DNA from: Gammaproteobacteria bacterium
GTDB taxonomy: Bacteria; Pseudomonadota; Gammaproteobacteria; JAADHS01
NCBI GenBank assembly: GCA_013151745.1
Contig: JAADHS010000121.1
Span: forward strand, 1-37,339
Reading direction: 5' to 3'
DNA length: 37,339 nucleotides
The translations under genes were made by a program, and so were the position numbers. Below the pieces are notes generated by a model. The model was given only the letters and a program-made list of their open reading frames with translations. It did no database searches and had not been told where the DNA came from. This document shows positions 1 through 6,123 of the stretch, in pieces (position 1 is the stretch's first letter; each line of letters starts with the position of its first letter).

Positions 1-1387
1 CAGCCATATGGCGACTGAATGCTCGTGGCGTAGTTTCTGCGATGTTGGCCAGCAACGCTACCTCTGATGTTTCCGACATATCTTCCCCATCAAACGAGTA
101 CAAAAGACTGGCAATTTCGGCACATCTCAGCAAATCGTCATTTGGGTTGTTTTTCTGGTGGAAAAGACGCTTAAACAATTCAGCATCTTGCAGCTTTGCC
201 ATTTCTCCATTTGTATTGGCAGTTGAAGCGAGCGCAAAGGCTACTCGTGCATTACCATCTGAAAATTCGGCAATTTTTCGAGTGTCATTACCTGAAAGAA
301 TTTGGTAGCGATTTTCAAGTAGTTTCCGAATTATCTGATTTGAAACACCTTCTAAACGAAAACAGGAGGTACTTTCTGGCAGATCATCTCTGATGTCATA
401 CTCGATTGTGAGCAATCGAAGTTGGCTACCTTTCCGTTTGATGATTTCAGTGAGGCGCTGATGCGTGTCAGACCCACAGTTATCAATAACAACAACACAG
501 TCACTATCACGGGAAACTAGTTCTTCGAGCATTTCTTTTGGTTGTGGCGTTGGTTCGTCGGCTAAGTCTGTGTAGACAACGTTGTCAGGAGAAGGGGCTT
601 TTGCGGCAACGCCAATTCGCACGTCAAAGAGCGCTTGTGCCAAACGGGTTTTCCCAACACCAGAAAGCCCGACTATTCGAACAGACGCTGGTTGTGACAG
701 TTCACTTCTAAGCTGTTCAATGGCAGAATTAATGTCACTACCTTTATCCTGACCAAGCACAAAAACACGTACACGTTCATCAACCAAGTATTCATCGCTT
801 ACATCGTCTTCGTGGTATGCCCATGAACCGTAGGGTTGCCATCCGGTAAACGATTGTCCTAGTTCATGTCTCACCCAGTTTGCTAAAGCTGGGTATTGTT
901 CAACCCAATCCGCTATTTGCCTGGCATCGTAAAAATCATAACCAATTTTTCCCTCGAGTCCGTGCGCCTTCAAAACAGCAGAAATTTTAGTCTTCCGTGC
1001 CAACAAAGAGCTATCTGATAGATCATCTCTAGTAGAGACAATAATATATGCTCCACCCATTGTTCCGAGTTCAATAAGTGCAGAGCGAACGTTGCCCTTT
1101 GGTGCCATTTCATTTGGAATTTTGGAGGGAGAAAATTTTTCTGCTTTCACTTGAATGGCAGTATTTTGATGTTTGATATAATTTAGTGAAGTTAATGGTT
1201 GATTACACTCAACGCGGACATCAACACCGCCATCTTTTGCTCGTTGATCGCCACCCCATGTCACACCCGATTCAGTTAGACCTTGGGCACGCAGCTCCGC
1301 TTTACAAAGTCGAGCAACCAACTCACGAGCCTGACTGTCGTTAAGTTTTTTGATTAGATCGGTAGTGATAGTAAAAATGGTTGCCAT
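1..1387 (-). CDS. Avs-like STAND ATPase with N-terminal PD-(D/E)XK nuclease-like domain (partial)
   Basis: The minus-strand frame is open from the ATG at 1387 to the window edge, giving 462 codons with no stop, so the C-terminus lies outside. Residues 1-175 look like a restriction-endonuclease fold: D52-G-G-V-D56 followed by Q79-V-K81 fits the D...(E/Q)xK core of Mrr-like nucleases. Residues 236-247 hold a Walker A loop (GLSGVGKT, 240-247) and 298-303 a Walker B (VVVIDN). A later SDGNARVAFALA stretch resembles the conserved block after the ATPase core in STAND proteins. Nuclease plus STAND ATPase is the plan of Avs-type antiviral sensors, whose large C-terminal repeat domain would be the missing part. 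Inference: a phage-sensing, nucleic-acid-degrading defence protein acting in the cytoplasm. It follows dnaE on the same strand after 128 bp and probably has its own promoter. A plain restriction-like ATPase is the alternative. Confidence 0.8.
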   Translation of the reverse strand, partial: MATIFTITTDLIKKLNDSQARELVARLCKAELRAQGLTESGVTWGGDQRAKDGGVDVRVECNQPLTSLNYIKHQNTAIQVKAEKFSPSKIPNEMAPKGNVRSALIELGTMGGAYIIVSTRDDLSDSSLLARKTKISAVLKAHGLEGKIGYDFYDARQIADWVEQYPALANWVRHELGQSFTGWQPYGSWAYHEDDVSDEYLVDERVRVFVLGQDKGSDINSAIEQLRSELSQPASVRIVGLSGVGKTRLAQALFDVRIGVAAKAPSPDNVVYTDLADEPTPQPKEMLEELVSRDSDCVVVIDNCGSDTHQRLTEIIKRKGSQLRLLTIEYDIRDDLPESTSCFRLEGVSNQIIRKLLENRYQILSGNDTRKIAEFSDGNARVAFALASTANTNGEMAKLQDAELFKRLFHQKNNPNDDLLRCAEIASLLYSFDGEDMSETSEVALLANIAETTPRAFSRHMA

Positions 1388-1515: not shown

Positions 1516-4500
1516 TTAATACACAACCCGAACCTCATTATCACCCATTGATTCGTTGAGTCGATGGATGAGTTCATCGGCGGGGTGAATTTTCCATTCT
1601 TCTCCCAAGGCGATCTGGGCGGATGCTGCGGAGGACTGATAACAAACCAGAACGGGGCAGACCCCATTTCGAAATGGGGTTAAGACCTCGGCCAGACCCC
1701 GTATGACAGTCGCACAATCGGAGTCGGCGCTCAGAGTAATGACGAGCCGCTTGGCAAAGGCGGATCGCGCTTCGTCGATATCAAATAATCGATCTGCGCT
1801 GACCCGGAACCCCCCTGAATAATCATCGACACTGGCATTGCCTTCAACCACCAGTAATTTATCTTTAATCAATTTATCCCGGTAGAGGCGATAATTCTCT
1901 GGAAAAAGACCCAGCTCAACCCGCCCGGTACGATCATCCAAAGTAATAAAAGCCATTTTATCGCCTTTGCGACTTCTCATCGTACGCACCGCAACAACCA
2001 ACCCGGCAATAATTATTTTTTGATTATTGTTGGGCTTGAGATCCGCTATTTTAAATGAAATAAAATGTCTGAGTTCCGCTTCGTAACGGGTTATGGGATG
2101 CCCTGTTAAATATAAGCCCAGGGTTTCTTTTTCAGCAAGCAAACGCTGATCCTTGCTCCATTCCGGGGTCTGCACATAGTCTGCTGAACAACCTGGGTCA
2201 TTGTCCTCTGACAACACATTACCAAAAAGATCAACTTGCCCTGAACTGCTGTTTCTCTCTACCTGTTCTGCGGTTTGCATGGCTTTGGTGAGCGAAGCCA
2301 TTAACGTCGCCCGGTTGGGGCCCAGTTCATCCATCGCCCCGGCACGAACCAAACCCTCCAGTGTGCGTCGATTCACTTTACGAGTATTCATTCGTGAACA
2401 AAAGTCGAATAAATTATTAAAGGTGCCGTTTGTCGTCCGTTCATCAACAATGCTGTCCACCGCAGATTGCCCCACCCCTTTAATCGCCCCCAGACCATAT
2501 TGAACCTGTCCATCCGACCGGGCTGTGAATGCGGTGACGCTGACGTTAAGATCAGGGGGGCGAATTTTTAATTTCATATCACGACATTCATCAACCAATG
2601 TGACTATTTTGTCCGTATTATCCATATCCGCCGATAACACAGCGGCCATAAAAGCGGCAGGATGATGTGCTTTCAGCCATGCAGTTTGATAGGATAGCAA
2701 GGCATAGGCGGCAGAATGTGATTTATTAAAACCATAGCCTGCAAATTTTTCCATTAAATCGAAGATATAGGTTGCTGTTTTTTCTTCAACATTAAGAGCA
2801 ACTGCGCCTTCGGTAAAAATAACCCGTTGTGTTTCCATTTCTTCAGGTTTTTTCTTACCCATAGCACGACGTAACATATCTGCACCACCCAACGAATAGC
2901 CCGCCAATACCTGCGCGATTTGCATCACTTGCTCCTGATATAAAATGACGCCGTAGGTCGGTTTCAATATCGGTTCAAGATCAGGATGGGGATAAACGAC
3001 TTGAGTTCGACCATGTTTACGATTGATAAAATCATCGACCATACCCGACTGCAACGGACCTGGGCGAAACAAGGCCACCAAAGCAATAATGTCTTCAAAT
3101 GAATCCGGTTGCAGACGCGTAATCAAGTCTTTCATGCCGCGCGATTCCAACTGAAACACAGCGGTGGTCGCACTATTTTTCAAGAGCGTAAAGGTCGCTT
3201 CATCATCCAGAGGAATAGAGTCGATCAGCAATCGCGGTTCGTCCTGGCCTTCGAACTGGCGGTTAATGGTTTTTACCGCCCAGTCAATAATTGTCAAGGT
3301 ACGTAAACCAAGAAAGTCAAACTTGACCAGCCCGACCGCTTCAACGTCATCTTTATCATATTGCGTGACAATGCTGTTGCTGCCTTGCTCGCAATATAAA
3401 GGTGAAAAATCCGTCAAAGCCGTCGGCGCAATCACCACTCCGCCAGCATGTTTGCCGGCATTGCGGGTCAAGCCTTCCAGTGTGCGTGCCATATCAAAAA
3501 GGGTTTGCACGTCTTCATCGTCGTTATAGCGCTGCTGTAAAGCCTCTTCACTGGCCAATGCCTTATCCAGCGTCATGCCAATTTCAAACGGAATCATTTT
3601 GGCGAGCTGGTCAACAAAACCATAACCGTGTCCCATGACTCGCCCGACATCCCGAATGACCGCTTTTGCCGCCATGGTGCCATAGGTGATGATTTGCGAG
3701 ACTTGATCCCGACCGTAGGTTTTGACCACATAATCGATCACCAGATCGCGTTTATCCATACAAAAATCGATGTCGAAATCCGGCATGGAGACCCGTTCCG
3801 GGTTCAAAAACCGTTCAAACAACAGTTCATATTTAATCGGATCAAGATCGGTAATATCCAAAGAATAGGCCACAATAGAGCCTGCACCTGAGCCGCGCCC
3901 CGGCCCCACCGGCACATCATTATTTTTTCCCCATTGAATAAAATCTGCGACAATCAAAAAATAACCCGGGAAACCCATTTGAATAATAACGTCTAGCTCT
4001 ACCTGTAAACGATCATCATATTCCTGGCGTCGTTGTTGTCGTTCTTCAGGATCAGTAATATCGTGCAGAATAACTTTTAGACGCCGCTCCAGGCCTTCAT
4101 GAGCTTGTTTTCTGAAAAATTCATCTTCGGTCATACCATCCGGGATAGGGAAATCAGGCAGCACCGCTTTGCCCAGTTCAAGTTCCAGAGTACAACGTTT
4201 GGCAATTTCAACACTGTTGGCCAAGGCTTCGGGAATATCGGAAAATAATACCTGCATCTCTTCGGGAGTACGTAAGTACTGCATTTCAGAATAGTTGCGG
4301 GGGCGGCGCGGATCATCGAGAGTTCGTCCTTCATTAATACAGACTCGCACTTCATGCGCTTCAAATTCGTCCTGTTGTAAAAAATGGACATCATTAGTCG
4401 CAACAACAGGCAGATTCAGCTTTAATGCCAAATCAACAGCCGCACAAAGATAACGTTCTTCATTTTCTCGGTTTGTTCTTTGCAACTCGATATAAAAACG

Positions 4501-4989
4501 ATCCGGAAACAAGGCTTGCCAAAAGGTCGCTAGTTCCAGGGCCTGCTCTTCTTTATGGGCTAATAATGCTTGACCCACATCGCCAAGTCGCCCCCCTGAC
4601 AACACAATCAACCCTGCTGTTTTGCCTTCAAAACCTTTTTTTTCTATCGTCGGTAGGCCATAGTGCTGCCCCTCGATATAGGCCAAACTGAGTAATTCAC
4701 AAAGATTGCGGTAACCCGTTTTATTTTGGCACAACAAAACCAAAGGCGTTGGACTCTCAGGTTCTGCCTCATTGGCGATCCAAACATCCGCGCCAAAAAT
4801 AGGTTTGATACCCGCGCTCTGTGCGGCACGATAAAATTTAACCAGGCCAAATAAATTAGACTGGTCAGTGACTGCAACTGCCGGCATCGCCGCCTTAGCC
4901 ACCGCATTGACTAAGGGTTTGAGGCGAACGACCCCACTGGAAATCGAAAATTCTGAGTGTAAGCGGAGATGAACAAAAGAGGCGTCCAT
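1516..4989 (-). CDS. dnaE: DNA polymerase III subunit alpha
   Basis: This is the replicative DNA polymerase (catalytic alpha subunit of Pol III holoenzyme), 1157 residues against about 1160 in E. coli. An N-terminal PHP domain begins FVHLRLHSEFS. The polymerase palm carries the catalytic acidic motif PDFDIDF. The five-residue beta-clamp-binding motif QVDLF lies at 918-922, followed by an OB-fold (about 990-1070) and a C-terminal tau-binding region. The frame is open upstream to 5058, but the ATG at 4989 is chosen because the protein then starts like other DnaE proteins and does not overlap rnhB. Only 4 bp separate it from the rnhB stop, so the two are cotranscribed. In many gammaproteobacteria accA follows dnaE; here a STAND defence gene does. 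Confidence 0.97.
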   Translation of the reverse strand: MDASFVHLRLHSEFSISSGVVRLKPLVNAVAKAAMPAVAVTDQSNLFGLVKFYRAAQSAGIKPIFGADVWIANEAEPESPTPLVLLCQNKTGYRNLCELLSLAYIEGQHYGLPTIEKKGFEGKTAGLIVLSGGRLGDVGQALLAHKEEQALELATFWQALFPDRFYIELQRTNRENEERYLCAAVDLALKLNLPVVATNDVHFLQQDEFEAHEVRVCINEGRTLDDPRRPRNYSEMQYLRTPEEMQVLFSDIPEALANSVEIAKRCTLELELGKAVLPDFPIPDGMTEDEFFRKQAHEGLERRLKVILHDITDPEERQQRRQEYDDRLQVELDVIIQMGFPGYFLIVADFIQWGKNNDVPVGPGRGSGAGSIVAYSLDITDLDPIKYELLFERFLNPERVSMPDFDIDFCMDKRDLVIDYVVKTYGRDQVSQIITYGTMAAKAVIRDVGRVMGHGYGFVDQLAKMIPFEIGMTLDKALASEEALQQRYNDDEDVQTLFDMARTLEGLTRNAGKHAGGVVIAPTALTDFSPLYCEQGSNSIVTQYDKDDVEAVGLVKFDFLGLRTLTIIDWAVKTINRQFEGQDEPRLLIDSIPLDDEATFTLLKNSATTAVFQLESRGMKDLITRLQPDSFEDIIALVALFRPGPLQSGMVDDFINRKHGRTQVVYPHPDLEPILKPTYGVILYQEQVMQIAQVLAGYSLGGADMLRRAMGKKKPEEMETQRVIFTEGAVALNVEEKTATYIFDLMEKFAGYGFNKSHSAAYALLSYQTAWLKAHHPAAFMAAVLSADMDNTDKIVTLVDECRDMKLKIRPPDLNVSVTAFTARSDGQVQYGLGAIKGVGQSAVDSIVDERTTNGTFNNLFDFCSRMNTRKVNRRTLEGLVRAGAMDELGPNRATLMASLTKAMQTAEQVERNSSSGQVDLFGNVLSEDNDPGCSADYVQTPEWSKDQRLLAEKETLGLYLTGHPITRYEAELRHFISFKIADLKPNNNQKIIIAGLVVAVRTMRSRKGDKMAFITLDDRTGRVELGLFPENYRLYRDKLIKDKLLVVEGNASVDDYSGGFRVSADRLFDIDEARSAFAKRLVITLSADSDCATVIRGLAEVLTPFRNGVCPVLVCYQSSAASAQIALGEEWKIHPADELIHRLNESMGDNEVRVVY

Positions 4990-4993
4990 AGCG

Positions 4994-5566
4994 TTAAACG
5001 GCACCCTGCAAAACTCGTCGAACGGGAGCAAAAGACCGTCGGTGAATCGGGCTGGCACCCAACTCCTTCAGTTTAATCATATGTAATTGACTACCATAGC
5101 CTTTATGTCTGGCGAATTCATAACCAGGATAAACACAATCCATGCGAATCATTTCTTCATCGCGGGTCACTTTGGCAATGATCGACGCCGCACTAATGGC
5201 GGCAATTTTATCATCGCCTTTAATAATCGTTTCTACGATCAGCGTCGGCAAATGGGGGGGTTGATTACCGTCAACTAACACACGCTCAGGTACTTTAGCC
5301 AAGCTGTGTACAGCGCGCTCCATTGCTTTCATCGTCGCTCTGAGAATATTGATTTCATCGATTTCGTCCACTTCGCTGCGGCCAACAGCCCAGGCCAGCG
5401 CCTTGTTTTTTATTTCCTGAGCTAACTTTTCCCTCTTGGTCGCGGTTAATTTTTTTGAGTCCGCTAAGCCCTCAATGGCGACAGCCGGATCCAAAATTAC
5501 GGCGGCCGCGACCACTGGCCCTGCTAAAGGCCCCCTACCCGCTTCATCTACACCCGCGATTAACAT
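4994..5566 (-). CDS. rnhB: Ribonuclease HII
   Basis: RNase HII cleaves RNA in RNA-DNA hybrids and starts removal of single ribonucleotides misincorporated into DNA. The 190-residue protein is of normal length. It opens with the family signature [13 protein letters not shown], which carries catalytic D7 and E8; further acidic active-site regions are VLVDGNQ and the conserved [13 protein letters not shown] helix. The ATG at 5566 has a good GGGAG ribosome site 7 nt upstream. It precedes dnaE by 4 bp on the same strand, matching the common lpx-rnhB-dnaE order, although the lpx genes are not upstream here. A toxin-antitoxin pair occupies the upstream side instead. Confidence 0.97.
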
Positions 5567-5721: not shown

Positions 5722-6123
5722 CTAACACCCAGCGGCAATTGAAACAGACGAAGCTTTAAACCAGTCCGTTATCTCATTTTCGGTAATATTATTTGATGCT
5801 AAATTTTCGAAAATCACGACTACTTCTGATTCAGGCGCATTAAAGTGAGATCCATTTATCTCCAAAAATACGGCAGCGACTGTAAATGCAATTCGCTTAT
5901 TGCCATCAACAAAGGCATGGTTCTTGGCAAGACCATAACTATATGAAGTAGCCAGTTCAAAAATGGATGATTCAGGCTCATAAGAAAATCGTTGTTGTGG
6001 TCTCGCTATTGCAGAATCTAAGAGAGCTCTGTCACGTAGGCCTGACGATCCGCCATATTCCGATAGCAGCATTTTATGAGCCGATATTACAAGCTGTTTC
6101 ACTACCCAAACAGGCTCTTTCAC
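5722..6123 (-). CDS. doc: Fic/Doc (death-on-curing) family toxin
   Basis: A 133-residue Doc-type Fic protein. The Fic active-site motif is HAFVDGNKR at residues 69-77, with catalytic His69 and the nucleotide-phosphate-binding GNKR. Phage P1 Doc phosphorylates EF-Tu with the related HxFxDxNKR motif, so kinase-like or AMPylating toxicity is expected, probably blocking translation; this is inferred from family. The start codon is GTG at 6123, overlapping the antitoxin stop by four bases (GTGA), which indicates translational coupling with antitoxin first. All visible motif residues are intact, so the toxin looks functional. The last residues (SIAAGC) are followed by about 150 bp with no gene before rnhB. 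Confidence 0.9.
   Translation of the reverse strand: MKEPVWVVKQLVISAHKMLLSEYGGSSGLRDRALLDSAIARPQQRFSYEPESSIFELATSYSYGLAKNHAFVDGNKRIAFTVAAVFLEINGSHFNAPESEVVVIFENLASNNITENEITDWFKASSVSIAAGC

Follow-up and report, generated by a model that had tools for sequence, protein, structure and literature searches.

PD systems were obtained by selecting functionally for resistance to phage in Escherichia coli (PMC9519451), and in this host the PD-lambda-4 system gives protection against phage. A review files PD-lambda-4 under P-loop NTPases (PMC10952713); no description of its mechanism was found in the literature searched, including the available portion of the Vassallo text. Avs proteins follow an effector-STAND-sensor plan, and Avs1-4 cleave DNA (PMC12931631).

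Here we analysed a window of 37,339 nucleotides that is exactly contig C13 of a gammaproteobacterial genome (GCA_013151745.1), so that there is no sequence to the left of position 1. At this edge, an open frame of 462 codons reported in an earlier note on the same DNA was confirmed. It lies on the minus strand, which that note had omitted, begins with an ATG at 1387 and continues past the left edge of the window, which is the contig end (G000:C13:1). Pfam and NCBIfam searches of the protein gave weak P-loop matches alone, all below cut-off. In contrast to these, the PADLOC model PD-Lambda-4_A matched with E = 3.3e-128, residues 3-452 being collinear with positions 2-452 of the 1283-residue profile. 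Because of this collinearity, and because the key residues are identical in 29 of 29 aligned family members, the frame is far beyond chance. We conclude, with a probability of roughly 0.8, that the gene encodes the N-terminal third (∼36% of the full length) of a PD-lambda-4_A protein, that is, of a single-chain, NLR-like antiphage nuclease-STAND sensor of ∼1,280 residues. The protein is thus a new but incomplete member of an already catalogued family, and the antiphage role which the earlier note had proposed is supported by this family membership.

Table 1. Features of the gene fragment at the left end of the window (residue numbers refer to the encoded protein).
Feature	Position in window	Strand	Basis
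5' part of PD-Lambda-4_A family gene, 462 codons	2..1387	-	PADLOC PDLC03991, E 3.3e-128
N-terminal PD-(D/E)xK-like nuclease domain (predicted), residues 1-175	863..1387	-	AlphaFold model
Predicted nuclease active site, D52-G-G-V-D56...Q79-V-K81	1145..1234	-	D52, G54, D56, Q79, K81 identical in 29/29
STAND-type P-loop ATPase module (predicted) and start of next helical region, residues 217-462	2..739	-	Pfam (weak), AlphaFold, Foldseek
Walker A, GLSGVGKT, residues 240-247	647..670	-	identical in 29/29
Walker B, VVVIDN, residues 298-303	479..496	-	D302, N303 identical in 29/29

The earlier note had also proposed a nuclease front end joined to a STAND ATPase, and this layout was upheld by invariant motifs, by the predicted AlphaFold folds and by Foldseek matches to immune STAND proteins. 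All motif positions given there were correct (D52, GGVD at 53-56, QVK at 79-81, Walker A at 240-247 and Walker B at 298-303). In addition to the catalytic pattern (D52, G54, D56, Q79 and K81), the alignment of 29 family members showed all eight Walker A residues, D302 and N303 of Walker B, and also E329-Y-D-I332, G378-N379 and R381 to be invariant. In the AlphaFold model of the encoded fragment (mean pLDDT 79.7), a nuclease-like fold is followed by a P-loop ATPase. In the first of these domains, blocks at pLDDT 70-96 comprise a helix (17-34), strands (42-44, 57-60 and 75-81), further helices and a strand (113-118), an order that fits the alpha-beta-beta-beta-alpha-beta core of PD-(D/E)xK enzymes; D56 stands just ahead of one strand, and QVK ends the next. 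No Pfam nuclease model matches this domain. The modelled core order together with the invariant D56 and Q79-x-K81 argues for a PD-(D/E)xK domain and makes it a predicted nuclease.

The ATPase itself spans residues about 217-340 in the model, with a helical region after it, and drew weak Pfam matches (AAA_16, nSTAND3/6 and NB-ARC) below cut-off. Foldseek comparison of the window model with the PDB was led by tomato NRC3, Avs4 (8dgf) and Sr35 rather than by a non-defence ATPase, with Avs3 (8dgc), CED-4 and NOD2 lower down; scores were low throughout (TM 0.25-0.33, rmsd 9-24 Å, the STAND proteins at TM 0.27-0.33), and the matches to ORC/RFC-type and other AAA proteins were comparable to those to some of the STAND proteins. 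The invariant Walker motifs and the STAND proteins among the best matches suggest that the central module is a STAND-type ATPase. NRC3, Sr35, CED-4 and NOD2 are NLRs, which have an ATPase fold of this STAND/NB-ARC type, but where PD-lambda-4_A has its predicted nuclease the NLRs bear a coiled-coil, TIR, CARD or other signalling domain, and sequence kinship between plant or animal NLRs and PD-lambda-4_A is at most faint.

The C-terminal part was modelled on a relative from Pelagicoccus (L006; 1284 aa, 57% identical over the covered part), which the PD-Lambda-4_A model matches end to end (E = 2.9e-256). Residues 430-1284 of this protein were predicted by AlphaFold to be nearly all helices (mean pLDDT 82.2), with structural matches to importins and other HEAT-type solenoids. 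The full-length relative therefore has an all-helical C-terminal solenoid in the model, and the ∼820 residues absent from our fragment are expected to form a helical solenoid that would serve as the sensor.

Could the window copy be incomplete in the cell, and not just in the assembly? Searches of the 95.6% complete assembly by protein, by family model and with contig-end DNA did not find the remaining ∼820 residues, so that either the missing region could be unassembled or the copy could be broken; the frame is intact to its last codon. We consider it rather unlikely that the copy is a broken remnant, interrupted at or just past the contig end, e.g. by a mobile element whose repeats ended the contig. 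Consistent with such a break, neither the C-terminal 820 residues nor the rest of the profile match anywhere else in the assembly, although in another genome (G075) the same PD-Lambda-4_A model did recover a split copy, detecting each of its two halves. Broken copies also exist elsewhere: in E. coli, A-gene copies (among H2, H13, H16 and H19) are interrupted by the insertion sequences IS1 and IS100, and frame breaks split the copies in L022, L030 and L032, which suggests frequent loss. However, the window frame remains open and aligned with its relatives through the last codon, all active-site residues are intact, and the final 150 bases of the contig contain no repeat common to other contigs of the assembly.

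Relatives were recovered at 29 loci when one genome of each species was scanned. Those of full length measure 1265-1293 aa, are 34-57% identical over the covered part, and occur in proteobacteria, Verrucomicrobiota and Chloroflexota as well as on plasmids (42 plasmid records); the phage records searched held no relative. Within E. coli, 180 of 5,426 genomes carry one, and among sampled genomes of the same class as our source, 11 of 369 (the source genome included) gave PD-Lambda-4_A matches at 1e-20, some of them distant. A further, distantly related group from other gammaproteobacteria (L050-L056), whose proteins mostly measure 1148-1377 aa and match the model at E = 1e-27 to 1e-40, possibly represents a sister family.

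Across all 450 residues aligned, the window protein and protein A of PD-lambda-4 are members of one family, and they share catalytic and Walker residues. In contrast, the window protein and the E. coli protein (NZ_CP074749; 2532 bits against PD-Lambda-4_A) are only 35% identical and fall into separate clades. In a tree of N-terminal parts, the window protein groups with those of Pelagicoccus (Verrucomicrobiota) and Thiothrix, in a well-supported clade (100/98) that also holds Rhodocyclaceae and Rhizobium copies; the grouping with Pelagicoccus and Thiothrix gives a pattern of horizontal spread.

The two systems also differ with respect to the partner gene B, none being found with the window's clade, and in that the window copy stops at the contig end. 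A whole or partial PD-Lambda-4_B match follows A within ∼50 bp in E. coli and at five further enterobacterial loci, and the corresponding side is missing in the window, so a two-gene system with B encoded past the contig end was considered. This is quite improbable, because the B-bearing loci (L042, L025, L027, L017, L021 and L023) all fall within a single tip clade of enterobacterial A genes, and because no convincing B was detected in the source genome (best match E = 0.09), the visible side of the window gene included. Moreover, tblastn detected no B beside those complete members of the window's clade for which downstream sequence exists (L006, L009, L010 and L044), nor beside the close enterobacterial A genes L018, L019 and L020. 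In total, B was not found beside the other 20 loci examined by tblastn, a search that a divergent B could escape and in which some contigs end too soon; among these loci are those of Buttiauxella and Enterobacillus, whose A genes are near-identical. At the Rhizobium locus (L044), an unrelated-looking gene of 272 aa occupies the B position.

Since B is limited to a small clade of enterobacteria, the proteins of the window's clade may function on their own. A bolder reading, at a little short of even odds, is that this clade constitutes an NLR-like nuclease sensor encoded by one gene, which would work without B and respond to a phage trigger of its own, the two-gene PD-lambda-4 being the exception in the family. 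Likewise, as B went undetected beside L018, L019 and L020 despite their near-identical A genes, most of the family may be overlooked when PD-lambda-4 is defined by two genes.

That the protein is a true Avs (AVAST) member of an undescribed type is very improbable and was rejected: it has the Avs order of parts (nuclease, STAND ATPase and helical sensor in the AlphaFold models of the N part and the L006 C part), and Avs4 and Avs3 rank among its best structural matches, but no PADLOC Avs model matches it up to E = 1, or the full-length L006 relative up to 0.01, although a genuine Avs3a in L013 scores 2.4e-142 with the same library as a positive control, profile comparison (hhalign) with a genuine Avs3a gave probabilities of 8% for the N part and 0.1% for the C part, and a model specific to PD-lambda-4 fits along its length instead. 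The proposal of an Avs-type layout outside the numbered Avs groups thus stands, whereas that of a less-described Avs subtype does not, since the PD-Lambda-4_A model fits. Avs1-Avs4 and the present family share a nuclease effector (predicted here), a central STAND ATPase and a long helical C-terminal sensor; they differ in length, ∼1,280 residues in the family versus 1,534 and 2,028 in the matched PDB chains.

By analogy with Avs1-4 and NLRs, PD-lambda-4_A most likely works in an NLR-like manner. At rest, the STAND ATPase would be closed. Binding of a conserved phage protein, the trigger, by the C-terminal solenoid would lead to nucleotide exchange, which would open the ATPase and allow copies to assemble. 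Assembly would bring the nuclease domains together, and the joined nucleases would cut DNA, the presumed target, and thereby stop infection. The window copy itself adds just one more, incomplete member to the family; recognising that protein A combines nuclease, STAND and solenoid parts, and that B accompanies it in just a small clade of enterobacteria, makes the phage trigger and the dispensability of B accessible to direct tests.

Defence genes adjoin several relatives: GajA of Gabija (L010 and L011), Avs3a (L013), HEC-05 (L034), a retron RT (L017), a DpdF/UvrD-like helicase (L031), and AbiD with a Brx-type helicase (L006). The neighbourhoods scanned were picked by size and not at random, so these associations represent a pattern and not an enrichment statistic. 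The E. coli copy sits beside ssrA and an integrase. In Pseudaminobacter (L013), the Avs3a homologue (L013:5-5380, minus strand, 1792 aa) lies ∼2.6 kb from the PD-lambda-4_A gene, and this island thus carries two nuclease-STAND sensors.

The earlier note had suggested looking for defence genes next to the fragment. Its immediate neighbours proved to be the housekeeping genes dnaE (1516-5058) and rnhB, followed by a small Fic/Doc protein and then by sugar and redox enzymes, and no recognised defence system adjoins the gene within the window. A promoter scan upstream of the gene gave nothing above chance. The GC content of the gene (0.447) is similar to its surroundings, and composition therefore does not point to recent import. 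Two genomes of the same family have accA and tilS after dnaE, with accA adjacent to dnaE or nearly so. A defined insertion site between dnaE and accA was set aside because accA lies elsewhere in the source genome, on another contig (G000:C268:33937-34902) after a yrdC/sua5-like gene; gene order has therefore been rearranged here, and the idea that the fragment inserted cleanly between the two is unsupported. The small protein adjoining rnhB (5722-6123, minus strand, 133 aa) belongs to the Fic/Doc family and is possibly a Doc-like toxin.
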